Shown here in pieces: positions 8,291-50,564 of a DNA stretch of 64,000 nucleotides (position 1 is its first letter; each line of letters begins with the position of its first letter). A program made the position numbers and the translations under genes. Below the pieces are notes generated by a model. The model was not told where the DNA came from, made no database searches, and worked only from the letters and a program-made list of their open reading frames with translations. The DNA is from Betaproteobacteria bacterium (GTDB lineage Bacteria > Pseudomonadota > Gammaproteobacteria > Burkholderiales > SG8-39): contig CANJXQ010000006.1 of the NCBI GenBank assembly GCA_947478805.1, positions 1 to 64,000 of the forward strand, in the 5' to 3' direction.

Positions 8291-8304
<14 letters not shown>
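7549..8304 (+). CDS. livG: Branched-chain amino acid ABC transporter ATP-binding protein, LivG type
   Basis: Starts at ATG 7549, overlapping the livM stop, giving 251 residues. Walker A is GPNGAGKTT, Walker B is LLLLDEPAAGLN, and the H-loop is VVVEHDM. The signature motif is atypical: LPYGVKRRLGIA replaces the usual L-S-Y-G-x-Q-R-R, keeping the tyrosine-glycine core. It is a peripheral ATPase on the cytoplasmic face, partner of LivF. The C-terminus overlaps livF by 14 nt. Confidence 0.92.
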
Positions 8305-9001
<697 letters not shown>

Positions 9002-9168
9002 GCGCCAGCGCCGGGGCGGGATCCCGAGCATAATCCTGCGACCGGCGCCGTTGCCCGGTCGTTGTGCTCGGACTCGCGCATCGGTGCGGGGTTCAGGTGT
9101 CGAGGGCCGAGGGGAGCGATGATGTCCCCGGTTCGGCCGCAGGTCCATCCACTGGAAAGGAAAGTTCC

Positions 9169-9969
9169 ATGAATGCATCCGTAAAATCGATCGCAGCAGG
9201 TGATGTGCCTGCAGGCATGTCCGCCGCGGAGTGGCAGGTGCGCTGCGAGCTGGCCGCCTGCTACCAGCTCACCGACCTGTATGGCATGTCCGACATGGCG
9301 GCGACGCATATCTCGGCCCGGGTTCCCGGCCCCGAGGAGCACTTCCTGCTCAATCCCTTCGGTATGCTGTTCGACGAAATCACGGCCTCCTCCCTGATCA
9401 AGGTGGATGTCGAGGGCAACGTGGTTTCCGGCGGCAGCAGCAAGCAGATGAACTTCGCCGGATTCGTGATCCACAGCGCCATCCACATGGCCAAGCCGGA
9501 GCTCACCTGCGTCATGCACACCCATACGCGGGCCAACAACGGCGTGGCGATGCTCAAGGAAGGCTTGCTGCCCTTGTCGCAAAAGGCGCTGCTCATGTAC
9601 CACTACATCCGCTACCACGACTTCGAGGGGGCGGCGCTCAACCTGGGCGAGCGCGAGCGCATCGTCGCCGACATGGGCGACGATGGGCGCTGCATGATCC
9701 TGCGCAACCACGGGGCCCTTACCGTGGGCACGTCGGTCGGCGAGGCCTTCTGCTGGATGTACAAGCTGGAGATGGCCTGCCAGCACCAGCTCGACGGCCT
9801 GTCCGCGCAACGGGAACTGCAGTTGCTGTCGAAGGAAGTCATCGAGCTCACCAAGGAGCAGGGCCGCAAGCTGTTCATGCCGGGCGGTCCGGCCGAATGC
9901 GGCAAGCTGGAATGGCCGGGGTTGATCCGCAAGCTGGAGCGCGATCGCGGCACCTCCTACCGCACCTGA
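9169..9969 (+). CDS. Class II aldolase/adducin family protein
   Basis: Start chosen at ATG 9169, which follows GGAAAGGAAAG; the frame extends further upstream but without a ribosome site. The 266-residue product has the zinc-site histidines of the L-fuculose-phosphate aldolase fold: HTHTRANN near residue 117 and RNHGALTVG near 190. Family members cleave or epimerise sugar phosphates, or act on related hydroxy-acids. Bacterial members in catabolic clusters often have unknown substrates. It lies 49 nt before a binding-protein gene on the same strand, so a shared catabolic role is likely but unproven. Confidence 0.85.
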   Translation: MNASVKSIAAGDVPAGMSAAEWQVRCELAACYQLTDLYGMSDMAATHISARVPGPEEHFLLNPFGMLFDEITASSLIKVDVEGNVVSGGSSKQMNFAGFVIHSAIHMAKPELTCVMHTHTRANNGVAMLKEGLLPLSQKALLMYHYIRYHDFEGAALNLGERERIVADMGDDGRCMILRNHGALTVGTSVGEAFCWMYKLEMACQHQLDGLSAQRELQLLSKEVIELTKEQGRKLFMPGGPAECGKLEWPGLIRKLERDRGTSYRT

Positions 9970-10018
9970 CCCAGCGGCTCGGTCCACAGATTCGCGACAA
10001 ATTTCAGGGGAGAACCGA

Positions 10019-11107
10019 ATGCGTATTGCCATGAAAACCGGATTGGCGGCAGGACGAGCCGCAGTGAACGCAGCGCCCCGAACCCGCCTGAGCCGGCTGG
10101 TTGCTGCGAGCGCGATGTTGGCGGTATCGCTCTTGCATCCAGCCCATGCCCAGGTGCCGGGCAAGCCGCCTGCGGCGGGCACCAGCTGGAATGCGGTGCT
10201 GGATGCCGCGAAAAAAGAAGGCCAGGTAACGCTGTATTCAGCACTGACAAATCCGGAGATAGAACGCATAGCCACTGGATTCAGGAAGGCATATCCTGAC
10301 ATTCGACTGGAGTTCCTGCGAGGCCCTAGCGGCGAGCAGCTGACCAAGGTGGAGCAGGAACGCGCCTCCGGCGTGGATGGCGCCGATGTGCTCATTTCCA
10401 CGGAACTGGCCTGGTTCATCGATCGCGCCAAGGAAGGCCGGTTGCTCAGGCCCGTGGGCCCGGCGCTGGCGGCATGGCAGCCCAAGTACATCCATCAGGG
10501 CACGGCGATCACCATCGGCTACCAGCCGGTGGTCATTCCCTACAACAAGAACCTCGTTCCGGTGCCGCCCAAGAGTTACCTGGATCTCCTCAAGCCCGAG
10601 TTCAAGGGCAAGCTGGGGACCACCGAACTGGCGTCCACCTTCCTCATTGCCTGGTACGAATGGCTGGAGAAGAACAACGGCCCGGACTACCTGAAGAAGC
10701 TGCGCGCGCAGAACCCGCGGCTCTACGTCGGTGCGACGCCGACTGCGCAGGCGATCGCCTCGGGCGAGGTGGGTGTGGCGGCGTTCGGGAACACATCGGC
10801 CACCAAGGCGATGATGGACAAGGGGGCGCCGGTCGACTTCGTGGTGCCGAGCCCTGCGCTCGGCGTCGAATGGATGATGGCGGTGCTTGGCTGGAGCAAG
10901 CGGCCCAATGCCGCGCTGGTCCTTGCGGAATACGTGCTCTCGCGCGAGGGGCAGGGTGTCTGGCACAGCCGCGGCGAAACGGCCAGTCCCTTGCCCAACA
11001 TCCCGGGCTCCCTGGATGCCTCCAGCGTCTCGTCTTACGACCCGGCTGCCTACACCCCGGAGGTGGTCAAGAAGTATCGCGATTACTGGAGCGCGATTTT
11101 CAAGTAG
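10019..11107 (+). CDS. Extracellular solute-binding protein, iron(III)/polyamine type
   Basis: A 362-residue periplasmic binding protein of the type 2 fold (Fe3+/family 1 class). The N-terminus is an unusually long basic leader before a hydrophobic core that ends HPAHAQ (about residue 45), so a later start at ATG 10031 is possible. GQVTLYSALTNPEIERI is the typical first strand and helix. No matching permease or ATPase is adjacent, so it is an orphan unless its partners are elsewhere. Members bind iron, but also phosphonates, thiamine or aromatic compounds. The catabolic neighbourhood argues against iron. Confidence 0.85.
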   Translation: MRIAMKTGLAAGRAAVNAAPRTRLSRLVAASAMLAVSLLHPAHAQVPGKPPAAGTSWNAVLDAAKKEGQVTLYSALTNPEIERIATGFRKAYPDIRLEFLRGPSGEQLTKVEQERASGVDGADVLISTELAWFIDRAKEGRLLRPVGPALAAWQPKYIHQGTAITIGYQPVVIPYNKNLVPVPPKSYLDLLKPEFKGKLGTTELASTFLIAWYEWLEKNNGPDYLKKLRAQNPRLYVGATPTAQAIASGEVGVAAFGNTSATKAMMDKGAPVDFVVPSPALGVEWMMAVLGWSKRPNAALVLAEYVLSREGQGVWHSRGETASPLPNIPGSLDASSVSSYDPAAYTPEVVKKYRDYWSAIFK

Positions 11108-11323
11108 GAATCTCGCCGCTAGGCAACGCTGCGGGCACAGGCACGCGGATCGCAGGGCAGGCTCGGAATGTAGAATGCCGGGCGGGCAATTGTCCTGCGG
11201 GTAGTGGCACCGAAATTCGCCGTGCCAGATGGAGTCCCGGCGGCAGTAGGGTACGGAGTGCGCCGGGCGAGCATCGCCGTGTTCACGCTTTGAGACAGTA
11301 GCAAAGAGATTGGTCAGCAGGTC

Positions 11324-13054
11324 ATGAGCGGAAAAGTAGCGCTTGTCATTCGTAACGGCGTGATCCATGACGGTACAGGCGCGGAGCCTTTCGAGGCCGA
11401 CGTTGCCGTTGATGGCGGGCGAATTGTCGCGGTGGGAAGACGACTCGGCAATCGCGGCACCCAGGAGATTGATGCGCGGGACCGCATCGTCACGCCCGGA
11501 TTCGTGGACATTCACACCCACTATGACGGCCAGGTGACCTGGGACGAGCGCATCAAGCCTTCGTCCCTGCACGGGGTGACCACCTGCGTCATGGGCAATT
11601 GCGGCGTGGGGTTTGCACCCTGCCGGCCGGAGCACCGGGACCTGCTGGTGAGCCTGATGGAGGGCGTCGAGGATATTCCCGGCGCTGTGCTGCAGGAGGG
11701 TGTGCCCTGGGCGTGGCGATCCTATCCCGAATACCTGGAATTTCTGGCCGCGCGCCGCTTCGACATCGATGTCGCGAGCTTCGTGCCCCACGCGGCCCTG
11801 CGCGTGTTCGTCATGGGGGAGCGGGCCGCGAATCTTGAAGCAGCCACCGAAGCGGACGTTGGCGACATGGCAGCGCTGTTGCGGGAGGCGATGTCTGCGG
11901 GCGCGCTGGGATTCGGCACGTCGCGCATCCTGGTTCATCGATCGAGCGATGGCCGCAATATTCCCACCCTGGCGGCCCGCGAGAACGAACTGGTGGCGCT
12001 GGCCGCAGCGGTGGCGGATGGCCAGCGTGGTGTCATGCAGTACAACACCGATTTCTACGAAGCCGATGCGGTGCTCGCCGAACTGGGGCGAATACTTTCT
12101 GAGACCGGGTGCCAGGCCACGTTGTCCCTGAACCAGAACCACCGCGTTCCGCGGACGTGGGAGCAGGTTATGGACTGGGTTCGCGATGCCAATGATCGGG
12201 GCATGTCGATTACCGCCCAGGTGATGCCCAGGGCGGTCGGCGCGCTGCTCAGCCACGAACTGACGTTGACGCCCTTTTCGGAATCGAAAAGCTACCGTGC
12301 CCTTGAGCAATTGCCGTTCGCGGACAAGATCCGTCAACTCAGGCGACCGGAAGTCCGCGCCCGCATCCTGTCGGAGCAGCCCGAGGAAGATCGCAGCAAG
12401 CCCTTGGCCGGTCGTGCGCGCGCATTCGACAAGCTCTACCCGCTGTCCGTCCCCCTCGACTACGAGCCCTCGCCCCAGGACAGCATCGCCGCGCGCGCCG
12501 CGCGCGCCGGCGTGGCTCCCGAGGCACTGGCCTACGATCTCCTGCTCGAGGGCGATGGGCGCAACATGCTCTATCAGGCGATTGCAAACTATGCCGACGG
12601 TTCGCTCGATCCGTGCCTGAAAATGCTCACGCACCGTGACAGCGTCCTTGGCCTTGGCGACGGCGGCGCGCACATGGGCATGATCTGCGACGCCAGCTAT
12701 TCGACGTTCATGCTCACGCACTGGGCGCGCGATCGCACCCGCGGTGGAAAACTGCCGCTGGCGCAGGTGGTACGCGCGCTGTCTCATGACACGGCGCGCG
12801 TTGTCGGCCTGAACGACCGCGGCCGAATTGCAGCGGGCCTGCGCGCCGACATCAATGTCATCGACTTCGACCGGCTGCAGATCGACATGCCGGAGATCGT
12901 GCGCGACCTGCCGGGTAACGGGCGCAGGCTGATGCAGAAAGCGCATGGGTATGATGCGACGATCGTGTCCGGGGTCATTACCTACGTCAAGGGTGCGCAG
13001 ACAGGCGCATTGCCCGGTCGCCTGGTGCGCGGGCGTCAGCACGCCGGAGTGTGA
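11324..13054 (+). CDS. N-acyl-D-amino-acid deacylase family amidohydrolase
   Basis: A 576-residue cytoplasmic TIM-barrel hydrolase of the amidohydrolase 3 / D-aminoacylase group. The metal-binding HxH is in [13 protein letters not shown]. The cysteine metal ligand typical of D-aminoacylase is in [12 protein letters not shown]. The late aspartate segment is [11 protein letters not shown]. It should hydrolyse an amide or cyclic-amide bond; the name D-aminoacylase describes only the closest characterised relatives. The preceding 216-bp gap holds no recognisable element beyond a weak AGCAGG ribosome site. It stops just before the next gene. Confidence 0.85.
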
Positions 13055-39109: not shown

Positions 39110-39341
39110 GTTGCTGCTCCTTGCGATGTGAAAAGGGTTGGGCGACGGGGTGATGCCCTGGGGCCCCAGCCAGCCCGCGCTGCCGCCGTTCGAATCGCGC
39201 CATTGTACGAAAAATGTGGCGCGGGAAGTTGGGGGCACGGTGCGTGCGTCGCGAGGGTTGCGCCGGCAAGCGACTGAAATTGCTGGGAATCCAGACCGTG
39301 ACGCGCACAGTTGCCTGTTCGGAGTTGATCTTTGTAAAATA

Positions 39342-39433
39342 TTTGTCATAGACAAAAACTTCGCGTGATGCAGCATGTCTATAATGACTGTATCGTTCAT
39401 TTGTTCAGAAAGATCACAATTGTCCAAGACAAT
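39342..39433 (+). promoter_or_regulatory. litR promoter with three GTC...GAC palindromes
   Basis: TTTGTC-ATA-GACAAA (39342-39356) and ATTGTC-CAA-GACAAT (39419-39433) are perfect 6-3-6 palindromes. Between them GTC-TATAAT-GAC (39377-39388) embeds a consensus -10 hexamer. No good -35 is spaced for it, as expected where a MerR-type or photoreceptor repressor/activator controls the promoter. The matching half-sites suggest one regulator, most simply LitR itself. If this -10 is used, translation would start at TTG 39420. Confidence 0.55.
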
Positions 39434-40373
39434 ACCGGCGCCAAAGCGAACCAAGCCCGTCCTGCTGACAGCCATTGGCCGTGTCGAGCGGGAGACGGGA
39501 CTGGCCAAGGACACGCTGCGGGTGTGGGAGCGCCGCTACGGGTTCCCCAAGCCGCTGCGCGATGGCAATGGCGAGCGCGTCTACCCGCCCGAGCAAGTGG
39601 AAAAGCTGCGCGTCATCCGACGCCTGATGGATGGCGGCATGCGACCGGGCAAGCTGGTCAACGCGACCCTGGCACAGTTGTCGGAGCGCTTTGGCGCGTC
39701 AAGGGTGGAGGACAGCAGCCGCTCCGGAGAACCATCGCCGATGACGGAGTACCTGCCACTCATCAAGGCGCGCGAAGCCGGTGTCCTGCAAAGGCAGCTC
39801 GCCCATGACTTGATGCGCCTCGGCCTGCAGCGGTTCGTCGTCGACGTGGTGGCGCCCCTGAACGTGGGCGTGGGCGAGGCCTGGACGCGCGGTGAACTGG
39901 AGATCTACGAAGAGCACCTGTATTCGGAGCAGGTGCAGCACGTGCTGCGGCAGGCGCTGGCCAGCGCGCCGCGCATGACACGCGACCCGCGCCTGTTGCT
40001 GACGACGTTGCCCGGGGAGCAGCACCAGATCGGCCTCTTGATGGCGCAGGCCTGCCTGGCGGTGGAGGGCGCGGAGTGCCTTTCGCTTGGCCCGCAGACG
40101 CCGGCGCGGGACATCGTGCTTGCGGCCAGGGCGCATCGCGTCGACGTCGTCGGGCTGTCATTCAGTTCGGCGATCCGGCTGCGCGAAGCCCGCGCGGCGG
40201 TGGTCGATCTGCGCAAACACCTCGACCGCTCCATCGGGATATGGGCGGGCGGCGGGTTGTGGGCGGGCATGAAAGAACCTGTGGCAGGCGTCACGATGAT
40301 CGCGTCGCTGGATGCCATTCCGGCGGTGCTGTCGCAATGGCGCGAGCAGCATTCCAAGGCGGTGTACGCATGA
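39375..40373 (+). CDS. litR: B12-dependent MerR-family photoreceptor regulator, LitR/CarH type
   Basis: Up to 332 residues. A MerR helix-turn-helix (LTAIGRVERETGLAKDTLRV, then WERRYGFP) is followed by a B12-binding helical bundle with the signature W-x9-EH (AWTRGELEIYEEH) and a Rossmann B12 domain with ExHxxG (GEQHQIG) carrying the lower-ligand histidine. These residues define adenosylcobalamin photoreceptors that bind DNA in the dark and release it in light. ATG 39375 is the longest start, but TTG 39420 after AGAAAGA is plausible. It stands first before the lipid gene cluster, which it probably controls. Confidence 0.88.
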   Translation: MSIMTVSFICSERSQLSKTIPAPKRTKPVLLTAIGRVERETGLAKDTLRVWERRYGFPKPLRDGNGERVYPPEQVEKLRVIRRLMDGGMRPGKLVNATLAQLSERFGASRVEDSSRSGEPSPMTEYLPLIKAREAGVLQRQLAHDLMRLGLQRFVVDVVAPLNVGVGEAWTRGELEIYEEHLYSEQVQHVLRQALASAPRMTRDPRLLLTTLPGEQHQIGLLMAQACLAVEGAECLSLGPQTPARDIVLAARAHRVDVVGLSFSSAIRLREARAAVVDLRKHLDRSIGIWAGGGLWAGMKEPVAGVTMIASLDAIPAVLSQWREQHSKAVYA

Positions 40374-40437
40374 AGCGGGCGCCCATGACAACCAGGACCG
40401 CCGGCAATCCGGCGCGAGATTACCGAGGAGATGCAAC

Positions 40438-41484
40438 ATGACGATCGCCACCCAACGTGCCATCGATCTTGCGGAGCATGGCCTGCTGCCGGATGTCGCC
40501 ATACGGCAGGGCATACGCCGGCTGTTGCGCGTTCGTCTCGCCCAGTTGCAGGCGTCGGATTGCGAGGCGGCTGTGTCACGCGCAACGCAGTTCGTGGCCG
40601 GGATGAATCGCTCGGACATTGCCCCGCTGCCGGACAAGGCCAACGAGCAGCACTACGAAGTACCAGCGGAGTTCTTCGCGCAGGTGCTCGGTCGCCATCG
40701 AAAATACAGCGCGTGCGTCTGGCCGCCTGGCGTGGAGGCCCTGGATAGCGCAGAAGATGAAGCCTTGCGCGCCACCTGCGAGCGTGCGGGCCTCGCCGAC
40801 GGCATGGATATTCTTGAGTTGGGCTGCGGTTGGGGCTCGTTGACGCTGTGGATGGGCTCGCACTACCCCGGCGCGCGCATTACCGCCGTCTCCAATTCCG
40901 CCTCGCAGCGCGCCCATATCGAGGCCGAAGCGGCGCGGCGCGGGCTGCGCAATGTGGCGGTGGTGACCGCTGACATGAACGCTTTTGCGCCGGCCGGCCA
41001 GTTCGACCGCGTGGTATCGGTGGAAATGTTCGAGCACATGCGCAACTGGCAGGTGCTGTTCGCCAGGGTGTCGCAGTGGCTGCGACCGGGCGGGCAGTTC
41101 TTCATGCACGTGTTCTGCCACCACGATGTGCCGTACCCGTTCGACGTGGAGGGGCCGGACGACTGGATGAGCCGCTATTTCTTCTCCGGCGGCATGATGC
41201 CCAGCGACGACCTGGCATTGCGCTTCCAGGACGACCTGAAGCTGTTGCGGCAATGGCGCTGGGACGGGACGCATTACGAGCGCACGGCGAATGCCTGGCT
41301 CGCCAACATGGACGCCCGGCGCGCAACCATCATGCCGATCCTGGCCAGCACCTACGGGCAGGCGCAGGCAGCCCGGTGGTGGACGCGCTGGCGCATCTTC
41401 TTCATGTCGTGCGCCGAATTGTTCGGCTACCAGGACGGCCAGGTGTGGTGGGTGAGCCACTACCTGTTCCAGCGCCGTCACTGA
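40438..41484 (+). CDS. SAM-dependent methyltransferase, cyclopropane-fatty-acid synthase-like
   Basis: ATG 40438 after GAGGAG gives 348 residues. The family segment NEQHYEVPAEFF parallels the AHYDLGNDFF of classical Cfa. The SAM motif is DILELGCGWGSLTLWM and VVSVEMFEHM follows. It lacks the longer N-terminal domain of true Cfa and is nearer to the branch with coclaurine N-methyltransferase-like proteins. It could methylate or cyclise an unsaturated acyl chain or another small molecule. It is the first gene after litR (64-nt gap) and a second paralogue ends the cluster. Confidence 0.85.
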   Translation: MTIATQRAIDLAEHGLLPDVAIRQGIRRLLRVRLAQLQASDCEAAVSRATQFVAGMNRSDIAPLPDKANEQHYEVPAEFFAQVLGRHRKYSACVWPPGVEALDSAEDEALRATCERAGLADGMDILELGCGWGSLTLWMGSHYPGARITAVSNSASQRAHIEAEAARRGLRNVAVVTADMNAFAPAGQFDRVVSVEMFEHMRNWQVLFARVSQWLRPGGQFFMHVFCHHDVPYPFDVEGPDDWMSRYFFSGGMMPSDDLALRFQDDLKLLRQWRWDGTHYERTANAWLANMDARRATIMPILASTYGQAQAARWWTRWRIFFMSCAELFGYQDGQVWWVSHYLFQRRH

Positions 41485-41485
41485 C

Positions 41486-42061
41486 ATGAACGCCGTATCG
41501 AGCATGGCGCAATCGCAATCCGGCCGCACGACGGCGCGCAATGCCGTCAATTTCCTGGCTTTCCAGCTGGGCTGGTTTGCCTGCGTCCTGGGGGCGGCAA
41601 ACGCCTATCCCTGGCTGGGCGTATGGGCCGCCATCGTGATCGTGGCCGGCAACGTGGCATGGTCGGCGCGACCCGCGGCCGAGGCAGGGTTCATTGCGCT
41701 GGCGCTGCTGGCAGGCGCCGCATGGGAGACGCTGCTGCTCGCATCGGGTGCGCTGCAGTATTCCGCCGGGTCGCTGTTGCCAGGCTTTCCGCCGCCATGG
41801 ATTCTTGCCTTGTGGGCATTGTTCGCCAGCACCCTCAATGTATCGCTCGGTTGGCTGCAGGGCCGCTGGCTGCTGGCGGCCGTGCTTGGCGGGCTGTCGG
41901 GCCCGGCATCCTATTGGGCTGGGGCACGGCTGGGGGCGCTGAACATCGTCGATCCACTGGTCTTCGTGTTGATGCTGGCCGCAGGCTGGGCCGTGCTCAC
42001 ACCGGTGCTCCTCGCGCTGGCCCGACGCCTGTGCGGTCAAACATCGCGGGGGGTGCAGTGA
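41486..42061 (+). CDS. DUF2878 family membrane protein
   Basis: A 191-residue protein with about five or six hydrophobic helices and the segment NFLAFQLGWFACVLGA near the start, matching DUF2878. It starts 1 nt after the methyltransferase stop and overlaps the next start (GTGA). The family is known almost only from light- or stress-induced lipid clusters with Cfa-like enzymes. Biochemical function is unknown. Confidence 0.8.
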   Translation: MNAVSSMAQSQSGRTTARNAVNFLAFQLGWFACVLGAANAYPWLGVWAAIVIVAGNVAWSARPAAEAGFIALALLAGAAWETLLLASGALQYSAGSLLPGFPPPWILALWALFASTLNVSLGWLQGRWLLAAVLGGLSGPASYWAGARLGALNIVDPLVFVLMLAAGWAVLTPVLLALARRLCGQTSRGVQ

Positions 42062-42903
42062 ACAGCCTGTCGTCCGTGCTGCCCGCGACTGGCATGCCGT
42101 TGCTGGCCGGCTTCGTGTTGATGCTGGCATTCGCGCTGGGCACCTGGGGGATCAGCGTGTTCAAGCGCGACGCCAGCATTGTCGATGCCGTCTGGTCGCT
42201 CATGCTGTTGCTGGGCGCGCTCACCTATGCGCTGGCCGCGCCCGCGGCAGGGGAGCGCGCGGGCTGGGTGCTTGGGTTGACGGCGGTGTGGGCGATCCGC
42301 TTGTCAGGGCACATCATCTGGCGCGGCTGGGGGGAACCGGAAGACCATCGCTACCAGGCGATTCGCGCGCGTAACCAGCCCGGCTTCGCCTGGAAGAGCG
42401 CGTACCTGGTATTCGCGCTGCAGGCCGTGTTGGCCTGGATCGTGTCGCTGCCGCTCTACGCTGCCGCATCGGGCCGGGCAGCTCTGGGCTGGCTGGATGT
42501 CGCCGGGCTGCTATTGGTGGCTGCGGGGATCCTGGTGGAATCGCTGGCCGACCTCCAGTTGGCGCAGTTTCGCGCCCGTCCGGGGAACAAGGGCCGCGTC
42601 ATGGACCGGGGCCTGTGGCGCTATTCGCGCCATCCCAATTACTTTGGCGAATTCTGCGTATGGTGGGGCTTCTACCTGGTCGCGCTATCCGCGGCAGGCG
42701 GATCCTTCGCTTCGATCATTTTCATTGTTTCACCGTTGTTGATGTCGGTCTTGCTGCTCAAGGTCTCCGGCGTCACCCTGCTGGAAAAGGACATCGCCGA
42801 GCGCCGGCCGGGCTATCGCGAGTACGTCGCGGCCACCAATGCCTTCTTCCCAGGACCGCGTCGACGCAGTTCCGGCAGCGAAACCACGCAGGGAAAGGGC
42901 TGA
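42058..42903 (+). CDS. DUF1295 family membrane protein, steroid 5-alpha-reductase-like
   Basis: GTG 42058 overlaps the previous stop; 281 residues with about seven membrane helices. The C-terminal motif GLWRYSRHPNYFGEFCVWWG is the signature of the steroid-reductase/isoprenylcysteine-methyltransferase-like fold, which binds NADPH or SAM at the membrane. In this cluster it may reduce or modify a lipid intermediate; the reaction is unknown. The last residues are basic and extend past the family core. Confidence 0.85.
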   Translation: MNSLSSVLPATGMPLLAGFVLMLAFALGTWGISVFKRDASIVDAVWSLMLLLGALTYALAAPAAGERAGWVLGLTAVWAIRLSGHIIWRGWGEPEDHRYQAIRARNQPGFAWKSAYLVFALQAVLAWIVSLPLYAAASGRAALGWLDVAGLLLVAAGILVESLADLQLAQFRARPGNKGRVMDRGLWRYSRHPNYFGEFCVWWGFYLVALSAAGGSFASIIFIVSPLLMSVLLLKVSGVTLLEKDIAERRPGYREYVAATNAFFPGPRRRSSGSETTQGKG

Positions 42904-42907
42904 CGCC

Positions 42908-43594
42908 ATGTGGCCCCGCTCAATTGCCTTCGTTGCCTTGGCGGCCATGGTTGCCGTGGCTGCCGGCCTGCAGCCCGCGGCTGTCGTCGCCGCGCAGCCA
43001 CAGGCCTGGAATTTTCGCGTGTTCCTCAATGATTCGCCCATCGGGCAGCACCGCTTCACCCTGCGGCGCGACGGTGACGAGGCCGAGCTTCGCAGCGAGG
43101 CGCGCTTCGAGGTGAAGCTGCTGTTCATCACTGCCTACCGCTACGCCCACACGGCGGTCGAGCGCTGGCGCGGGAACTGCCTGACCGGGATGACCGCCCG
43201 CACCGACGATGACGGCAGGAAGCTTGTGGTCGATGCCACCGCCGCGTCCGTCACTTCAACCCCGACGGCGCAGGAAGGCAGCCGTCTGGAAGTCTCCACC
43301 GGCACGGGACGCCAGCCGCTGGATGGCTGCGTGATGAGCTTCGCCTACTGGAATCCCGCGCTGCTCAAGCAGGAGCGGCTGCTGAACGCGCAGACCGGCG
43401 AGCACGAAGCGGTGAGGATCAGCGATGCAGGGGAAGAACGCATCGTGGTGCGTGGAGTCCCGGTGACGGCGCGACGCTACCGCATCGCCGGGAGCAAGAA
43501 CCCCATCGACATCTGGTACTCCGCATCGCGCGAGTGGCTGGCGCTGGAATCGACCCTAGAGGGCGGGCGCCGGCTGCGCTACCAGATCGAATGA
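42908..43594 (+). CDS. DUF6134-like exported protein
   Basis: ATG 42908 gives 228 residues with a signal peptide (MWPRSIAFVALAAMVAVAAG...). The mature part is beta-rich: WNFRVFLNDSPIGQHRFTL, then VDIW-like strand IDIWYSASREWLALESTLEG, resembling DUF6134/DUF3108 beta-barrel-like proteins of the periplasm. It may bind or carry a lipid product between membranes. It overlaps the lipocalin start. Confidence 0.7.
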   Translation: MWPRSIAFVALAAMVAVAAGLQPAAVVAAQPQAWNFRVFLNDSPIGQHRFTLRRDGDEAELRSEARFEVKLLFITAYRYAHTAVERWRGNCLTGMTARTDDDGRKLVVDATAASVTSTPTAQEGSRLEVSTGTGRQPLDGCVMSFAYWNPALLKQERLLNAQTGEHEAVRISDAGEERIVVRGVPVTARRYRIAGSKNPIDIWYSASREWLALESTLEGGRRLRYQIE

Positions 43595-44139
43595 CGCCAA
43601 TGAATCCGATGAAACTCGCAGCCGCGGTGGTTGCCGCCTGCACCGCGCTTCTGGCCGGGTGCCAGGCTGCGCCCGCGACACCGGTAGCGACCGTGTCCCG
43701 CGTCGACCTGTCGCGCTTCATGGGCGATTGGTACGTGATCGCGAGCATCCCGACCTTCATCGAGACGACGGCCTTCAATGCGGTGGAGTCGTACACGCTG
43801 GATGCCGACGGCAGCATCGCAACTACCTTCACCTTTCTCGACAACGGCTTCGACGGCAAGCAAAAGCGCTATCACCCGCGCGGCTTCGTGGTCGATCGGC
43901 AGAGCAACGCGGTGTGGGACATGCAGTTCATCTGGCCGATCAAGGCCGACTATCGCATCGCCTGGCTGGCCGAGGACTACTCGCAGACCGTGATCGCGCG
44001 CGAGAAGCGCGACTACGCCTGGATCATGGCGCGCACCCCGGTCATCGCCGAGCAGCAATACCGGGAACGGGTCGCGTTCCTGGCCGCGCAGGGCTATGAC
44101 GTCAGCAAGATCAGGAAGGTGCCGCAGCGATGGAACTGA
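43591..44139 (+). CDS. blc: Bacterial lipocalin, outer-membrane lipoprotein (Blc type)
   Basis: ATG 43591 overlaps the previous stop, giving 182 residues. A lipoprotein signal ends in LLAGC. The lipocalin signature is FMGDWYVIASIPTFIE, and the C-terminal segment DYAWIMARTPVI matches Blc. Blc binds fatty acids and lysophospholipids in the outer membrane. Here it probably carries or protects the modified lipid. It overlaps the desaturase start by 10 nt. Confidence 0.9.
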   Translation: MTPMNPMKLAAAVVAACTALLAGCQAAPATPVATVSRVDLSRFMGDWYVIASIPTFIETTAFNAVESYTLDADGSIATTFTFLDNGFDGKQKRYHPRGFVVDRQSNAVWDMQFIWPIKADYRIAWLAEDYSQTVIAREKRDYAWIMARTPVIAEQQYRERVAFLAAQGYDVSKIRKVPQRWN

Positions 44140-45122
44140 TCCCGCCCACCACGGTTGCTTCGACCTCGCGCACGGCCCGGCTCCTCGCCAGCGTTGCGCT
44201 GTGGTTCGATTCGGGGGCGGTGCCCGTTGTTCCGGGTGAGGCAGCAGGCGCCGGCAGGCGCATCGACTGGCTGCGCGTGCTGCCGTTCATCGGCATCCAT
44301 GCGGGCTGCGCCGGCGTACTGCTGGTCGGCTTCAGCTGGACGGCGCTGGGCGTGGCGGTGTTTCTGTATGCACTGCGGATGTTCGCCATCACCGGCTTTT
44401 ACCATCGCTACTTTTCGCATCGCGCGTTCCAGGCCTCGCGCGCCATGCAGTTCCTGTTCGCGCTCATCGGAGCCTCCAGCGCCCAGCGCGGCCCCCTGTG
44501 GTGGGCGTCGCACCACCGCCACCACCATGTGCATTCGGATACCCCGGGCGATCCGCATTCGGCGCGCCAGCACGGCTTCTGGTGGAGCCACCTGGGCTGG
44601 TTCCTCGCGCAAGGCAGCTTTGCAACGCGGCTCGAGCGCGTGCCGGACCTGGCGCGCTTTCCCGAGTTGCGCTTCCTGGATCGTTTCGACCTGCTGGCCC
44701 CGTTTGCTTTGGGTGCACTACTGTACGGCGCGGGCGAGGTGCTGGCGCGCCTGGCGCCGGGCCTGGAGACCAGCGGCGGGCAGCTGCTGGTGTGGGGCTT
44801 CTTCATCTCCACGGTGGTGCTCTACCACGCCACGTTCTTCATCAATTCCCTGTCGCACCGCTTTGGCACGCGCAGGTACGCCACGCGCGATGAGTCGCGC
44901 AACAATCTGTGGCTCTCCTTGCTGACCTTCGGCGAGGGCTGGCACAACAACCACCATCACTTTCCCGGCGCCGCACGCCAGGGCTTCTTCTGGTGGGAGA
45001 TCGACGTGACGCACCTGGGCCTACGCGCACTGGCCGCACTGGGGCTCATCCGCGACCTGAAACAGGTTCCCGCCCACATCCTCAACGCCCGCCTGGTCGC
45101 CGGGGGAGGGCGGCGCGCATGA
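44130..45122 (+). CDS. Acyl-CoA/fatty acid desaturase, membrane di-iron type
   Basis: A 330-residue membrane desaturase with all three histidine boxes: HRYFSHRAF, HHRHHHVHSD and HNNHHHFPG. Four to five hydrophobic helices flank them. The order matches delta-9 type acyl-CoA desaturases. It would place a double bond that the two Cfa-like enzymes could then act on. It overlaps both neighbours (10 nt and ATGA). Confidence 0.92.
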   Translation: MELIPPTTVASTSRTARLLASVALWFDSGAVPVVPGEAAGAGRRIDWLRVLPFIGIHAGCAGVLLVGFSWTALGVAVFLYALRMFAITGFYHRYFSHRAFQASRAMQFLFALIGASSAQRGPLWWASHHRHHHVHSDTPGDPHSARQHGFWWSHLGWFLAQGSFATRLERVPDLARFPELRFLDRFDLLAPFALGALLYGAGEVLARLAPGLETSGGQLLVWGFFISTVVLYHATFFINSLSHRFGTRRYATRDESRNNLWLSLLTFGEGWHNNHHHFPGAARQGFFWWEIDVTHLGLRALAALGLIRDLKQVPAHILNARLVAGGGRRA

Positions 45123-46414
45123 AGATCGCCATCGTCGGCACCGGCATTGCCGGCAACACCGTCGCGCACCGCCTGCACGGGCGGCACGACATCACCGTGT
45201 TCGAAGCCGCCGGGCACATCGGCGGGCACACGCACACACACAGCGTTCGCCTGGGCGACGAGCAGCACGAGATCGACACCGGCTTCATCGTATTCAACGA
45301 CCGCACCTACCCGAATTTCCTGGCCATGCTGGAACAACTCGGGGTGGAATCGCGCGCGAGCAGCATGAGCTTCAGCGTGAAGAACGAGATGACCGGGCTG
45401 GAGTACAACGGCACCACCCTCAACACGTTGTTTGCGCAGCGCCGCAACCTCATCCGCCCGTCGTTCCACCGCATGATCCGCGACATCCTGCGTTTCAACC
45501 GCGAGGCGCCGGCGCTGCTGTCGGGCGGTAACGAGATCGCGCTGGGGGATTACCTGCGGGCCGGCGGCTATTCAAGCCAGTTCATCGGCGACTACCTGAT
45601 TCCCATGGGGGCGGCGATCTGGTCAACCGATCCGCAGCGCATGCTGGATTTCCCGGCGAGATATTTTGTCCGCTTCCTGCACAACCACGGCATGCTGTCG
45701 GTGAACGACCGGCCGCAGTGGCGCACCATCACTGGGGGCTCGGCGCGTTATGTCGAGAAACTGGTCGCGCCGTTCCGCGACCGCATCCGGCTGGGCACGC
45801 CGGTCGAGTCGATCCGGCGCCTGCCCGACCGGGTGATGCTCAAGGCGCGAGGCAGGGAGGTCGAGCGCTTCGACCGGGTGTTCCTCGCCTGTCACTCCGA
45901 CCAGGCGCTGCGGATGCTGCAGGATGCCAGCCCGCTCGAGCGCGAGGTGCTCGGGGCGATCGCCTACCAGCGCAACGAGGCAGTGTTGCACACGGATGCG
46001 TCGTTGCTGCCGCGCAGGAAGCTGGCCTGGGCGGCGTGGAACTATCACGTGCTCCCCGACGGCGCGGGCGCGGGCAGCAATGCGCAGCCGCTGCCCGCCA
46101 CGCTGACCTACAACATGAACATCCTGCAGGGCCTGCAGTCGCGGCACACCTTCTGCGTGACGCTCAACCGCAGCCACGCCATCGACCCGCACAAGGTCAT
46201 CAAGCGGCTCGTCTACGAGCACCCGCTGTATACCCTGGCGGGGGTCGCGGCGCAGGAAAAGCAGCCGCTGGTGAACGGGCCGCTGGGAACCTACTTCTGC
46301 GGTGCCTACTGGCGCTTCGGATTCCACGAGGACGGCGTGGTGAGCGCCCTTGAAGCCTTGCGTCACTTTGAACGGGATGAACATGCACAGCGCCATCTAT
46401 CGCGGGTCGCTTGA
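45119..46414 (+). CDS. FAD-dependent amine oxidase family oxidoreductase
   Basis: ATG 45119 overlaps the desaturase stop; 431 residues. The dinucleotide motif is MKIAIVGTGIAGNTVAHRL, followed by IGGHTHTHSV and DTGFIVFNDRTYPNF. The C-terminal FAD motif is GTYFCGAYWRFGFHEDGVVSA. Proteins of this exact type sit beside DUF1365 and Cfa genes in many proteobacteria, including the singlet-oxygen sigma-E regulon of Rhodobacter. They are thought to oxidise an acyl chain. The reaction here is inferred. Confidence 0.9.
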   Translation: MKIAIVGTGIAGNTVAHRLHGRHDITVFEAAGHIGGHTHTHSVRLGDEQHEIDTGFIVFNDRTYPNFLAMLEQLGVESRASSMSFSVKNEMTGLEYNGTTLNTLFAQRRNLIRPSFHRMIRDILRFNREAPALLSGGNEIALGDYLRAGGYSSQFIGDYLIPMGAAIWSTDPQRMLDFPARYFVRFLHNHGMLSVNDRPQWRTITGGSARYVEKLVAPFRDRIRLGTPVESIRRLPDRVMLKARGREVERFDRVFLACHSDQALRMLQDASPLEREVLGAIAYQRNEAVLHTDASLLPRRKLAWAAWNYHVLPDGAGAGSNAQPLPATLTYNMNILQGLQSRHTFCVTLNRSHAIDPHKVIKRLVYEHPLYTLAGVAAQEKQPLVNGPLGTYFCGAYWRFGFHEDGVVSALEALRHFERDEHAQRHLSRVA

Positions 46415-47210
46415 CCACCGGCGGTTCCTGCCGCGCGCTCACGCGTTCCGCTATCCGCTGTTCCTCATGTACCTGGATCTCGCGGAACTGGACACGGTGT
46501 TCCGCGGCCGTTGGCTGTGGTCTGCATCGCGCATTGCACTGGCGCGCTTCGACCGGCGCGACCACCTTGGCGATCCGTCCACGCCGCTCGATGTCGCGGT
46601 GCGGGACCTCGTGCAGCAATGCACCGGGGAGCGACCGCGCGGGCCGATACGGCTGCTCACGCACCTGCGCTATTTCGGGCACTGCTTCAACCCGGTCAGC
46701 TTCTACTACTGCTTCGATGCCGGCGACACGCGCGTGGAGACCATCGTCGCCGAAGTGAACAACACGCCCTGGGGCGAGCGGCATTGCTACGTGCTCGCCG
46801 ATGCCGGCCAGGCGGTGGATGCGCCGGCGGCAGCCGAGCGGGGTGCGCACCGGCGCTACCGCACGAAGAAAGTCTTCCATGTGTCTCCCTTCATGCCCAT
46901 GGACCTGGATTACGACTGGGGATTCAGCGCGCCGGGCGAGCGCGTCGGCGTGCACATGGCGCTGAGCGAGCGCGCGGCTGGGGCCGGAGCGGAGCCGCGC
47001 AAGCTGTTCGACGCAACCCTCGCCTTGCGCCGCGCACCGATCGGCGGCGCGAGCCTTGCCGCGGTGTTGCTGCGCCACCCCTTCATGACGCTGCAGGTCA
47101 TTGCGGCCATCCACTGGCAGGCGCTGCGGCTCTGGCTCAAGCGCATCCCGTTTCACGCCCATCCGGGCAAAACCCAACCCGGCCATCCGCCGGCGGAGAA
47201 AACAGCATGA
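46377..47210 (+). CDS. DUF1365 domain-containing protein
   Basis: Two close ATGs (46377, 46383) are possible, both inside the end of the oxidase gene; 277 residues from the first. Family motifs are YRGSLDHRRFLPRAHAFRY, LRYFGHCFNPVSFYYCFD and KVFHVSPFMPMD. The function is unknown, but genes of this family accompany the FAD oxidase and Cfa so regularly that a step in the same pathway is likely. The stop overlaps the cfa start (ATGA). Confidence 0.88.
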   Translation: MNMHSAIYRGSLDHRRFLPRAHAFRYPLFLMYLDLAELDTVFRGRWLWSASRIALARFDRRDHLGDPSTPLDVAVRDLVQQCTGERPRGPIRLLTHLRYFGHCFNPVSFYYCFDAGDTRVETIVAEVNNTPWGERHCYVLADAGQAVDAPAAAERGAHRRYRTKKVFHVSPFMPMDLDYDWGFSAPGERVGVHMALSERAAGAGAEPRKLFDATLALRRAPIGGASLAAVLLRHPFMTLQVIAAIHWQALRLWLKRIPFHAHPGKTQPGHPPAEKTA

Positions 47211-48526
47211 AATTGATCACAGTCGGGCCACAGGCCTCACTTCGGGCAAGCAGCCAGGCATCGCGTCGGGAGCGGGCCTCATTGATCGATCGTGTCGCCG
47301 AGGCAGCGGTGCGCAGACGCCTCGCCGGACTCGCGCATGGCCAGCTGCACTTGGTGGATGGCGACAGGGTCGCGACCTATGGTGCGCGCACCGCAAGCTG
47401 CCCGCTCGAAGTCACGGTGCGGGTGCACGATTCGCGTTTCTACAGCGACATGGCCCTGGGCGGATCGGTGGGCGCCGGGGAAGCCTACATGCAGGACTGG
47501 TGGAGCGTGGACGACCTCACTGCGCTGGTTCGCATTCTGCTGCATAACCGCGCGGTGCTGGAGGGCCTGGAGTCGGGCTGGGCGCGGCTGGCCGCGCCGG
47601 CGCGCAAGGCGCTGCATTGGGCGGCGCGCAATTCCCGTAATGGCAGCCGCCGCAACATTGCCGCGCACTATGATCTCGGCAATGATTTCTTCGAGCTGTT
47701 TCTCGACCCCACCCTGATGTACTCCTGCGCGCTATTCGAGCAGCCGGAGATGAGCCTGGAGGATGCGTCGATTGCCAAGCTGGACAGCGTATGCCGCAAA
47801 CTCGGGCTGCGCCCTGGCGACCGCCTGCTGGAGATCGGCACCGGCTGGGGCGGCCTGGCGTTGCATGCCGCCAGGCATTACGGCTGCCATGTCACCACGA
47901 CGACGATCTCGCGCGAGCAGCACGCCAAGGCACGCGAGCGCATCGACGCCGCGGGCCTGTCCGAGCGGGTGACCCTGCTGCTCGAGGACTATCGCGACCT
48001 GGATGCGGCCCGCCTGGGCGGCCCGTTCGATAAACTGGTGTCCATCGAGATGATCGAGGCGGTCGGGCACCAGTACTTCGATGCTTTCTTCGGCAAGTGT
48101 TCGAGCCTGCTCAAGCCCGATGGCATGATGCTGCTGCAGTCGATCACCATCGCCGACCGCTTCTACGATGCGGCACTGAAGTCGGTGGATTTCATCCAGC
48201 GCTATATCTTTCCGGGCAGCTGCATCCCCTCCGTATCGGCGCTGTCGGCGTCCATTGCGCGCTCGAGCGACCTGGGCGTGTTTAACCTGGAGGACATCGG
48301 CCCGCACTATGCGCTGACGCTCAGGCGCTGGCGCGAGAACCTGTTCGCCAACCTGGACGGGGTACGCAGGCTCGGCTACCCGGAGTCCTTCATCCGCATG
48401 TGGGAGTTCTACCTGTGCTACTGCGAAGGCGGTTTCGAGGAGCGCGTGCTGGGCGACGTGCACATGCTGCTGGTGAAGCCGCAGGCGCGGCCGGCGGTGG
48501 GCCTGGGGGCGGGCCGTGCTACTTGA
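47207..48526 (+). CDS. cfa: Cyclopropane-fatty-acyl-phospholipid synthase
   Basis: ATG 47207 gives 439 residues. An N-terminal lipid-binding domain is followed by AHYDLGNDFFELFLDPTLMY, the SAM motif LLEIGTGWGGLALHAARHYG and VSIEMIEAVGHQYF; catalytic-site residues HFxC-like region FQRYIFPGSCIPS is standard. It transfers a methylene or methyl from SAM to the double bond of membrane acyl chains. It is the last gene of the litR cluster and its end overlaps the convergent tesA by 8 nt. Confidence 0.9.
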   Translation: MKLITVGPQASLRASSQASRRERASLIDRVAEAAVRRRLAGLAHGQLHLVDGDRVATYGARTASCPLEVTVRVHDSRFYSDMALGGSVGAGEAYMQDWWSVDDLTALVRILLHNRAVLEGLESGWARLAAPARKALHWAARNSRNGSRRNIAAHYDLGNDFFELFLDPTLMYSCALFEQPEMSLEDASIAKLDSVCRKLGLRPGDRLLEIGTGWGGLALHAARHYGCHVTTTTISREQHAKARERIDAAGLSERVTLLLEDYRDLDAARLGGPFDKLVSIEMIEAVGHQYFDAFFGKCSSLLKPDGMMLLQSITIADRFYDAALKSVDFIQRYIFPGSCIPSVSALSASIARSSDLGVFNLEDIGPHYALTLRRWRENLFANLDGVRRLGYPESFIRMWEFYLCYCEGGFEERVLGDVHMLLVKPQARPAVGLGAGRAT

Positions 48527-49178
48527 GCACCGGCGCGAGCACCTTCCACACGTTGTCGAGCAGCATGGGCTGCGCCTCGGCCAGCGGGTGCAACTGGTCG
48601 GGCTGGAACAGCGCCGGCTTGTCGGCCACCCCTTCCATCAGGAACCGCACCAGCGGCAGCTTGTATTGCTTCGCCAGCGCCGCATAGCTGCCCTGGAATG
48701 CGCTGGCATAGGCGTCGCCATAGTTGGGCGGCATGCGCATGCCCACCAGCACCACCTTGCTGCCGGCCTTCTGCGCCGCGCCGATGATGCGGGCGAGGTT
48801 GTCCTGCAACTGCTTCACCGGCAGCCCGCGCAGGCCGTCATTGGATCCAAGGGCAATGATGGTGACGCGTGGCTTGTGCTGGGCCAGTGTGGCGGCGATG
48901 CGCGAGGCGCCGCCGCTGGAGGTCTCGCCGCTGATGCTGGCATTGGCGACGTTATAATCGAGCCCGTTCTTGCGGATGCGTTCCTGCAGCAGGCTGACCC
49001 AGCCATCCTTCTGGCTGATGCCGTAGGCGGCGGAAAGGCTGTCCCCGTACACCAGCAGCGTCCTGGCGGCCGCGGCTGGCGCCGAGGCCGCAGTCAAAGT
49101 CAGGATCAGGGTCAGAGTCAGAGTCAAGGTCAGGGCCGGCGCCGAGGACCACCCGGCGCCAATGCCGGCCCGGCGCAT
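48519..49178 (-). CDS. tesA: Arylesterase/acyl-CoA thioesterase TesA, SGNH hydrolase
   Basis: ATG 49178 gives 219 residues; the longer open frame upstream runs into the divergent ABC gene. The signal peptide core is a run of Leu-Thr pairs coded by a hexamer repeat. Catalytic blocks are LLVYGDSLSAAYG (Ser), GSNDGLRG (Gly-Asn) and the DQLHP (Asp-His). It is a periplasmic lysophospholipase/esterase by family. The tesA-ybbA divergent pair is the same as in E. coli. Confidence 0.92.
   Translation of the reverse strand: MRRAGIGAGWSSAPALTLTLTLTLILTLTAASAPAAAARTLLVYGDSLSAAYGISQKDGWVSLLQERIRKNGLDYNVANASISGETSSGGASRIAATLAQHKPRVTIIALGSNDGLRGLPVKQLQDNLARIIGAAQKAGSKVVLVGMRMPPNYGDAYASAFQGSYAALAKQYKLPLVRFLMEGVADKPALFQPDQLHPLAEAQPMLLDNVWKVLAPVLK
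49093..49134. repeat. Seven hexamer repeats in the tesA signal peptide
   Basis: Seven GTCARR-type units (GTCAAA, GTCAGG, ATCAGG, GTCAGA, GTCAGA, GTCAAG, GTCAGG) lie head to tail. On the coding strand they give the Leu-Thr repeats of the TesA signal. Being six bases long, gain or loss of a unit would change core length without a frameshift. Confidence 0.8.
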
Positions 49179-49245
49179 TAAACGCCCCGGGCAACGCAAG
49201 ATGTAACCGAACCATGCCGAACATGCTGTCACAATAGAAGCCTTC

Positions 49246-49959
49246 ATGAATCCCATCATCGATGTCAATCGTTTGTGCAAGATCGTGCCGCTGGCGCGCC
49301 CGCCGGGCGAAGCCGTGGTCACGCCGGCACCCGAGTTGGTAATTCTGCAGGATATCGACATTGCCGTCATGGCGGGCGAGTCGTTGGCGATTGTCGGTGC
49401 CTCGGGCTCCGGCAAGTCCACGCTACTCGGGCTCCTGGCCGGACTCGATCTGCCGACAACCGGGTCGGTTCGTCTTGACGGCACAGACCTGGCGACGCTC
49501 GACGAAGACGGCAGGGCGGCCTTGCGGGCCCGCCTGCTCGGGTTCGTGTTCCAGTCCTTCCAGCTGCTGCCCGCGCTCACGGCGCAGGAGAACGTCATGC
49601 TGCCGCTGGAACTCGCGGGGGTGCCGGGCGCGGGGGAACTCGCGCGGGCCATGCTCAGTCGCGTGGGCCTGGGCGAACGCCTGGCCCACTATCCCAAATA
49701 CCTCTCCGGTGGCGAGCAGCAGCGCGTCGCGCTGGCGCGCGCTTTCGTGATGAAGCCCAAGCTCCTGATGGCCGACGAGCCCACCGGCAACCTCGATGCG
49801 GCTACCGGAGCAGCGGTCATTGACCTCCTGTTCGAGCTCAACGCGGAGCAGGGCACGACGCTCTTGCTGGTGACGCACGATGAAGCGCTGGCGGGCCGTT
49901 GCGGGCGCATCGTGCGCCTGGCGGCGGGGCGGATCGTCCCAGATCCGGTTGAGGCGTAG
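49246..49959 (+). CDS. ybbA: ABC transporter ATP-binding protein, YbbA/LolD family
   Basis: A 237-residue ATPase. Walker A is GASGSGKST, the Q-loop is FVFQSFQLLP, the signature is LSGGEQQRVALARAFV and Walker B is LLMADEPTGNLD, all typical of the MacB/LolD branch. It should work with the large FtsX-type permease at 50657. The two are separated by msrB, unlike the usual direct ybbA-ybbP order. The starts of this gene and tesA are 67 bp apart. Confidence 0.92.
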   Translation: MNPIIDVNRLCKIVPLARPPGEAVVTPAPELVILQDIDIAVMAGESLAIVGASGSGKSTLLGLLAGLDLPTTGSVRLDGTDLATLDEDGRAALRARLLGFVFQSFQLLPALTAQENVMLPLELAGVPGAGELARAMLSRVGLGERLAHYPKYLSGGEQQRVALARAFVMKPKLLMADEPTGNLDAATGAAVIDLLFELNAEQGTTLLLVTHDEALAGRCGRIVRLAAGRIVPDPVEA

Positions 49960-50084: not shown

Positions 50085-50564
50085 ATGAAAGTCAAGGTCT
50101 ACAACGCAGGAGGCCAGCTGGTGGGGCCGGTGGAGGTCGCGGCGGTGGTCAAGAGCGACGCGGAGTGGCGAGCGCAGCTCACCGGTTCGCAGTTCGAGAT
50201 CGCGCGCGGCAAGGGCACCGAGCGGCCGTTCTGCGGCACCTTGCTCGACAACAAGCAGGACGGCGTGTACAGCTGCATCTGCTGCGGCCTGCCGTTGTTC
50301 TCGTCGTCGGGAAAATTCAATTCGGGCACCGGCTGGCCGAGCTTTTTCCAGCCGGTGGCGGCGGAAAACGTCATCACCCATGAAGACCGGGCCTACGGCA
50401 TGGTGCGGGTGGAAATCCTCTGCGCGCGCTGCGACTGCCACCTGGGCCATGTGTTCGAAGACGGTCCGCGGCCGACGGGGCTTCGCTACTGCGTGAATTC
50501 CGATTCGCTGGCGTTTACGGCAGCGGCCGAATTGGCAAAACTCGCCGATCCCGCGGCCGGCTGA
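50085..50564 (+). CDS. msrB: Peptide-methionine (R)-S-oxide reductase MsrB
   Basis: A 159-residue MsrB. Zinc-binding CxxC pairs are CICC and CARC; the catalytic cysteine is in LRYCVNSDSLAF, and a likely resolving cysteine is in GTERPFCGT. GKFNSGTGWPSFFQP is the family core. It reduces oxidised methionine in proteins. The first 25 residues are an extra segment before the usual start. A strong AGGGGAG precedes the ATG. Confidence 0.93.
   Translation: MKVKVYNAGGQLVGPVEVAAVVKSDAEWRAQLTGSQFEIARGKGTERPFCGTLLDNKQDGVYSCICCGLPLFSSSGKFNSGTGWPSFFQPVAAENVITHEDRAYGMVRVEILCARCDCHLGHVFEDGPRPTGLRYCVNSDSLAFTAAAELAKLADPAAG

Follow-up and report, generated by a model that had tools for sequence, protein, structure and literature searches.

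A LitR/CarH-type regulator gene and the nine packed genes behind it span positions 39375-48526 of a 64,000-nucleotide stretch of Betaproteobacteria bacterium (lineage SG8-39; GenBank assembly GCA_947478805.1, contig CANJXQ010000006.1, positions 1 to 64,000; hereafter the window), and all ten genes lie on the plus strand. The cluster is probably a light-controlled furan fatty acid operon, a reading that is built on the observed gene content, homologies, photoreceptor signature, operator conservation and exchange of regulators among relatives. Since it encodes homologues of UfaD, UfaO, UfaM and a FufM-type methylase, the predicted products of the operon are mono- and dimethyl-furan acyl chains. 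The initial annotation had proposed a light-induced pathway that modifies acyl chains and exports the product to the outer membrane, and had left the product unnamed. Its core is retained as a B12-photoreceptor-type repressor placed over desaturating, methylating and oxidizing genes, as judged from sequence; a likely product can now be offered, and export to the outer membrane remains a guess that derives from the lipocalin lipoprotein. New here are the B12-photoreceptor version of the cassette, its furan reading, and a UfaM clade that is linked to a desaturase and may make something other than the known product.

The chemistry of UfaM, UfaD, UfaO and FufM was established in Rhodobacter sphaeroides and Rhodopseudomonas palustris: the first three enzymes convert cis-vaccenoyl chains to the furan fatty acid (FuFA) 9M5-FuFA, and FufM (RPA0924) adds a second methyl group (Lemke et al., PMC7380195; this and the other cited papers are represented here by parts of their text). 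UfaO contains DUF1365, and UfaD contains a flavin adenine dinucleotide (FAD) domain (PMC7380195). Halomonas has ufaD, ufaO and ufaM in a row, and its ufaM yielded the expected methylated intermediate in Escherichia coli (PMC12089945). Homologues of all four enzymes are present in the window, and the last three genes of the cluster stand in the order ufaD-ufaO-ufaM, which was also found in the complete Rhodopseudomonas genome G649 (locus L252; G, C and L mark our genomes, contigs and loci), whose homologues gave the identities listed in Table 1. The fufM gene of Rhodopseudomonas is far from the other three, whereas in the window all four are in one gene run together with a desaturase gene, behind litR.

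The alignment of the window UfaM to the Cfa chain 6bqc revealed that a glutamine replaces a Cfa histidine, which we take to be a bicarbonate ligand. Glutamine was present in all 29 UfaM rows covering that site (31 rows in total) and in Rhodopseudomonas UfaM; histidine was kept in the genome's own Cfa, in the Rhodopseudomonas FufM candidate and in 14 of 14 FufM-type rows. In a tree of 48 rows, which is uncertain because of long branches, the window UfaM falls in a clade of 11 that is sister to a 21-row clade with Rhodopseudomonas UfaM (support 96/89), and the genome's own Cfa falls outside both. These comparisons support kinship of the window protein with UfaM rather than Cfa, and its product may differ.

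The first gene behind litR was originally described as Cfa-like, which is right as to the CMAS family; the protein, however, is of the coclaurine N-methyltransferase/FufM type and not an ordinary Cfa. Its best solved relative is the coclaurine N-methyltransferase 6gkv (E 3.6e-70, full length; E 1.1e-30 for the Cfa chain 6bqc), and it shares 53% identity with the Rhodopseudomonas FufM candidate and 26-27% with UfaM and Cfa. FufM was reported to be 38% identical to the Arabidopsis methyltransferase LIME1 (PMC10940516). The candidate is inferred to be FufM from genus, gene content and map position rather than from an accession. The genus was taken from 92-93% matches to R. palustris and R. pentothenatexigens. 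G649 and G591 each have two CMAS matches above 100 bits and G678 has three, the third being in two pieces with an internal stop, and three such genes are named for R. palustris (RPA0924, RPA2569, RPA3082; PMC7380195). The candidate lies 1.84 Mb (G649), 1.72 Mb (G678) and 1.76 Mb (G591) from ufaM, which fits 1645 locus tags, and its position ratio is 0.360 in G649, against a tag ratio of 0.360, and 0.371 in G678 (the G591 record starts elsewhere). Among 398 genomes from the phylum, 33 have FufM-type genes, as do 81 of 248 in the Rhodopseudomonas family. The first gene behind litR is closest to the FufM candidate, and methylation of furan chains is its predicted function.

LitR exceeds each Pfam cut-off (MerR_1, 50.6 bits; B12-binding, 41.6 bits; B12-binding_2, 25.1 bits), and its best solved relatives are the CarH structures 3whp and 5c8d (E 1.7e-29). 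The intact B12 site noticed earlier was borne out, as W-x9-EH (WTRGELEIYEEH) and ExHxxG (EQHQIG) are both in LitR; the two motifs occur together in 35 of 37 related regulators. Four elements, GxxW, EH, GxxH and GxxxP, were tied to the light response by spectroscopy and structure (PMC11796333), and all of them are found in the window LitR (GEAW, EH, GEQH and GPQTP). The strict four-element pattern is carried by 19 of the 37 related regulators, including all 11 tested that head an operon with a FufM-type gene. LitR is predicted to be a B12-photoreceptor-type repressor that binds adenosylcobalamin and releases DNA in the light; a PduO-type cobalamin adenosyltransferase is encoded in the genome, and no CobA-type match was found there. 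CarH and class I LitR of Thermus and other bacteria are alike in domains, light-response elements and presumed tetramer repressor logic, but their described targets are mainly carotenoid genes and their operator differs from that of the window LitR (PMC11796333). The class II LitR of Pseudomonas is also a LitR/CarH-family repressor with paired sites, and its cluster holds ufaM, an FAD oxidoreductase gene, a short-chain dehydrogenase gene and phrB; unlike the window regulator, it has no B12 site, is controlled by a LOV protein and uses the site TGTACA-N12-TGTACA (PMC9758184). A site of the latter kind was ruled out, as TGTACA is absent from the 330 bases upstream of the window regulator.

Two sites of the pattern TTGTC-N3-GACAA (TTGTCNNNGACAA) were recognized at litR. 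The exact pattern occurs in 24 of 32 upstream regions of the window LitR clade and in none of 32 in the reversed control, although the independence of these regions is overstated because they share ancestry. When one mismatch was allowed, 19 of the 32 regions had two sites 55-85 bases apart (reversed control for pairs, 0/32), and with two mismatches sites were found in 28 regions versus 3 in the control. None of five regions upstream of a distant LitR type has the exact pattern; TGTATAA-like repeats, not TTGTC-N3-GACAA, were seen there by eye (L085-L088), so that the two LitR types probably read different operators. For the related repressor PmlR2, one site is described at -35 and the other between the transcript start and the start codon; the paired layout at litR resembles this, and the bases differ. 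A whole-genome search returned 8 operator sites, among them the litR pair, versus 3 for the reversed control. The six further single sites, of which the one on C12 lies inside a coding frame, were not used to propose a wider regulon, given the 3 in the control. In G023, sites and control were equal (4 and 4), though two of the four are its own LitR pair. In the relative G017, an operator pair (4660, 4724) adjoins a lipocalin gene followed by genes for GTP cyclohydrolase I and a BLUF blue-light domain protein (L291, contig C99, 2446-4736), probably a second LitR target in that organism. At contig ends of the same genome (L291 4711-5025; L292 4198-4599), an open reading frame behind paired sites resembles, by eye, a LitR N-terminus fused to a DUF6134-type end, possibly a remnant or an assembly effect.

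The ten-gene unit recurs in G005, a member of the same genus, with 79-95% identity gene by gene, and the nine-gene set recurs, complete or nearly so, in other Pseudomonadota; the cluster is therefore more than a chance assembly. A search of 101 relatives at a threshold of E 1e-20 yielded LitR homologues in 35. The cassette with the FufM-type gene stands behind members of the window LitR clade in the window and at L053, L054, L055, L071 and L080, behind the distant LitR (28-30% identical, light signature present) at L085-L089, and behind a LitR related to the distant type at L256. It is also located beside sigma-E/ChrR genes (L254, L255, L257, L261, L262, L267, L268 and the Rhizobium plasmid L272) or next to a different sigma/anti-sigma pair (L259, L271, L273). 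At L084 (cut by a contig end), L263, L269 and L270, no regulator of these kinds was recognized, and the same holds for the FufM-type genes without UfaD/O/M (L091, L092, L153, L253, L258, L260, L264-L266). A short LitR form, with UfaD/O/M and no FufM-type gene, is represented by 20 complete loci, 14 of them with FolE2. A split of the cluster into unrelated operons in relatives had been named beforehand as evidence against the proposed pathway; the cassette mostly stays together, although its order and regulator change and the Rhodopseudomonas FufM-type gene is apart from ufaD-ufaO-ufaM. In the 16 kb of the window around the cluster, neither member of an rpoE-chrR pair was matched; the ChrR-type cupin family has 9 matches in the genome, and at the two of these loci that were checked (L307, L313) no sigma factor was present. 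The Acinetobacter piscicola plasmid L270, typed as mobilizable, carries lipocalin, desaturase, UfaD/O/M, DUF1295 and FufM-type genes (6237-13050) with a cryptochrome/photolyase gene nearby, and the cassette can therefore sit on mobile DNA. In the Burkholderia-type loci L271 and L259, genes for a chalcone-isomerase-like protein, DUF2256 and GTP cyclohydrolase I come after the cassette, and two sigma factor genes adjoin.

The relation to the Rhodobacter singlet-oxygen set, which had been suggested earlier, is supported by sequence. The furan set of R. sphaeroides responds to singlet oxygen through sigma-E/ChrR (PMC7380195), whereas the window set lies behind LitR and its UfaM clade differs. In Stenotrophomonas maltophilia, smlt2375-2367 form a nine-gene sigma-Ec/ChrR operon that is 165- to 697-fold up without ChrR, and deleting it in the chrR mutant nearly undoes that mutant's tolerance to menadione and susceptibility to ceftazidime (PMC11832516). 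The annotated order is periplasmic protein, desaturase, FAD oxidoreductase, cytosolic protein, Cfa, two membrane proteins, Cfa and lipocalin (PMC11832516). Save for the periplasmic gene this is the order of L257 and L263, a match made by annotation and order with the DUF names inferred; the gene order and the sigma-E control differ from the window. The operon was published as cyclopropane lipid modification, and the word furan is absent from the portion of the paper drawn on here (PMC11832516). In Chlamydomonas, the SAK1-dependent singlet oxygen genes include CFA1, CFA2 and one gene each for DUF1365 and DUF1295, which are induced together; this is a eukaryote with another regulator, and no furan product is claimed in the part cited (PMC4067076). 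Among the open-access papers retrieved, which leave most subscription papers uncovered, no title or abstract opening links furan fatty acid genes with a B12-binding LitR/CarH or interprets the whole cassette as a furan operon.

Several observations weigh against a light-controlled furan operon. The window UfaM, UfaD and UfaO are 35-43% identical to the tested kind, and UfaM is placed beside, not inside, the Rhodopseudomonas clade. The strict four-element pattern is missed by 18 of the 37 related regulators, and LitR does not reach the NCBIfam CarH equivalog cut-off (129.6 vs 400 bits), for which reason it is named a B12-type LitR/CarH-family regulator and not a CarH equivalog. The candidate -10 element at 39380 was not reported by the promoter scan, whose sole match is 39311-39340 with 1.1 expected by chance. 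The S. maltophilia findings speak against a simple singlet-oxygen story for every bearer of the cassette.

The foremost alternative, which we consider unlikely, keeps the same control and changes the product: the desaturase-linked UfaD/O/M clade would use another olefin, for example that of its own desaturase, and give a furan or methyl-branched chain with a ring position or length unlike 9M5/9D5. The separation of the two UfaM clades is in its favor, as is the presence of the desaturase in 14 of 15 loci with window-type UfaM versus 1 of 32 others (47 complete UfaD/O/M loci; Fisher p 6e-10, uncorrected for kinship), a non-random sample fetched through LitR, DUF2878 or FufM-type matches. The exceptions are L256 and L270, whose UfaM is 49% identical. 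All 15 window-type loci also carry a FufM-type gene and DUF1295, partly because of how the loci were fetched. The reaction set, however, is otherwise identical, and the uncertain tree counts against this alternative as well. It is still less probable that LitR senses adenosylcobalamin or another signal instead of light and that the operon serves general oxidative or envelope stress, as all four light-response elements are present in LitR and genes for photolyase, cryptochrome and FolE2 are among the LitR neighbours in relatives. An ordinary operon that merely cyclopropanates phospholipids would agree with the CMAS matches of both genes and with the published reading of the sibling S. maltophilia operon, but it is highly improbable and was set aside: a separate, better-scoring CMAS gene lies on contig C262, both genes miss the NCBIfam Cfa cut-off of 400 bits (148.8 and 272.2 bits), the first is coclaurine-NMT/FufM-like (and does have the histidine), the last has glutamine at that position, and cyclopropane synthesis has no known role for UfaD or UfaO.

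For the light-controlled furan operon, we infer the light response, autorepression, chemical steps, products and physiological role as follows. In the dark, LitR with adenosylcobalamin would occupy the two TTGTC-N3-GACAA sites around its own promoter and block litR and the nine genes; light would break the cobalt-carbon bond, LitR would release the DNA, and the operon would be expressed. The desaturase and the housekeeping pathway would supply monounsaturated acyl chains in phospholipids, to which UfaM would add a methyl group; UfaD would introduce a second, conjugated double bond, UfaO would insert oxygen from O2 and close the furan ring, and the FufM-type enzyme would add the second methyl group. 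The resulting mono- and dimethyl-furan chains would react with singlet oxygen and spare the membrane, with DUF1295, DUF2878, DUF6134 and the lipocalin as accessories, perhaps in electron supply, trafficking or repair. A bolder version can be put forward only tentatively: the cassette may be a self-contained factory for a new dimethyl-furan lipid subclass, in which the olefin of its own desaturase passes to specialized UfaD/O/M and the lipocalin and DUF6134 carry the product to the outer envelope; bacteria would have exchanged its control between the sigma-E/ChrR sensor of singlet-oxygen damage and two distantly related B12 light sensors, which would let the protective lipid form ahead of any damage. 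If the light-controlled furan operon is real, B12 photoreceptors, described in the papers cited here mainly as carotenoid regulators, would gain a lipid-based light defence, and a nine-gene operon hitherto interpreted as cyclopropane genes would have a likely product. Two questions would then become testable: whether damage in some bacteria and light in others serves as the switch for one and the same membrane-protection cassette, and which product comes from the UfaM clade linked to the desaturase.

Table 1. Genes and control elements of the litR cluster (window positions).
Feature	Position	Strand	Basis
Operator site 1, TTGTCATAGACAA	39343..39355		sequence; pattern conserved upstream of related LitR genes
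TATAAT, candidate -10 element between both operator sites	39380..39385	+	read by eye
Operator site 2, TTGTCCAAGACAA, overlaps presumed TTG start of litR	39420..39432		sequence; conserved pattern
litR, MerR-type regulator with B12-binding domains	39420..40373	+	Pfam; solved CarH relatives; light signature
FufM-type S-adenosylmethionine (SAM) methylase (coclaurine N-methyltransferase-like)	40438..41484	+	solved relative and identity comparisons
DUF2878 membrane protein	41486..42061	+	Pfam E 2.7e-40
DUF1295 membrane protein, steroid-reductase-like family	42058..42903	+	Pfam E 2.2e-68; FufM-type neighbourhood
DUF6134 protein, N-terminal hydrophobic segment (signal-peptide-like)	42905..43594	+	Pfam; hydropathy
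Lipocalin, lipobox-like LAGC, Blc-related	43591..44139	+	Pfam; NCBIfam Blc below its cut-off; motif
Membrane fatty acid desaturase, three histidine boxes	44130..45122	+	Pfam; boxes
ufaD-like FAD oxidoreductase	45119..46414	+	43% identity to Rhodopseudomonas UfaD locus
ufaO-like DUF1365 protein	46377..47210	+	Pfam E 1.9e-85; 35% identity to Rhodopseudomonas UfaO locus
ufaM-like SAM methylase	47207..48526	+	38% identity to Rhodopseudomonas UfaM locus; shared His-to-Gln change

Every family named in the initial annotation was confirmed by Pfam, in gene order MerR_1 with B12-binding_2 and B12-binding, CMAS, DUF2878, DUF1295, DUF6134, Lipocalin_2, FA_desaturase, Amino_oxidase, DUF1365 and CMAS. The start of litR is presumed to be the TTG at 39420, and an ATG at 39375 is possible. 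A 64-base gap separates litR from the FufM-type gene; the description of the nine genes as overlapping is nearly exact, since six of the eight junctions overlap by 4-38 bases and the other two are 1-base gaps (with assumed starts). The remark that no photolyase is present holds for the cluster but not for the genome (4.42 Mb, 263 contigs, 89.8% complete), which has one on another contig (G000:C2:20841); no operator was found near it (13 kb, at most two mismatches). The genome, that of a soil- or water-type bacterium, presumably belongs to Burkholderiales: G419, a genome of the same order, has five proteins with 76-98% identity to those of a Burkholderia anthina plasmid. No tRNA was found in the window and nothing reached Rfam gathering scores, hence no B12 riboswitch was found there at that threshold.

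Among the accessory genes, DUF1295 is tied to FufM-type genes: it adjoins them (same strand, within 1.2 kb) in 119 of 139 loci, which are partly non-independent and rich in Bradyrhizobium and relatives, and of the 20 misses, 11 fall in loci no longer than about 4 kb and 9 in loci with longer flanks. No solved relative of DUF1295 was found by sequence. For this family, strains lacking RPA0923 are listed in PMC7380195, and no result for them was found in the main text searched. DUF2878 is present in 14 of 101 relatives. The single-sequence structure model of DUF6134 had a mean predicted local distance difference test score (pLDDT) of 40.6 and was given no interpretation. The periplasmic gene that adjoins the L257 cassette, a possible DUF6134 relative, lacks a Pfam match. 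In 21 loci of relatives, litR has nearby a gene for a FolE2-type GTP cyclohydrolase, absent from the window cluster (e.g., L054 10732-11568; L055 8112 onward), where its role might, as a guess, be pterin supply for photolyases.

Downstream of the cluster, a GDSL lipase/TesA-like gene on the minus strand (48519-49652) ends against ufaM from the opposite side and is apparently an ordinary neighbour, and a methionine sulfoxide reductase B gene (SelR, E 1.1e-48; 50085-50564) is flanked by genes for an ABC ATPase and a large permease.

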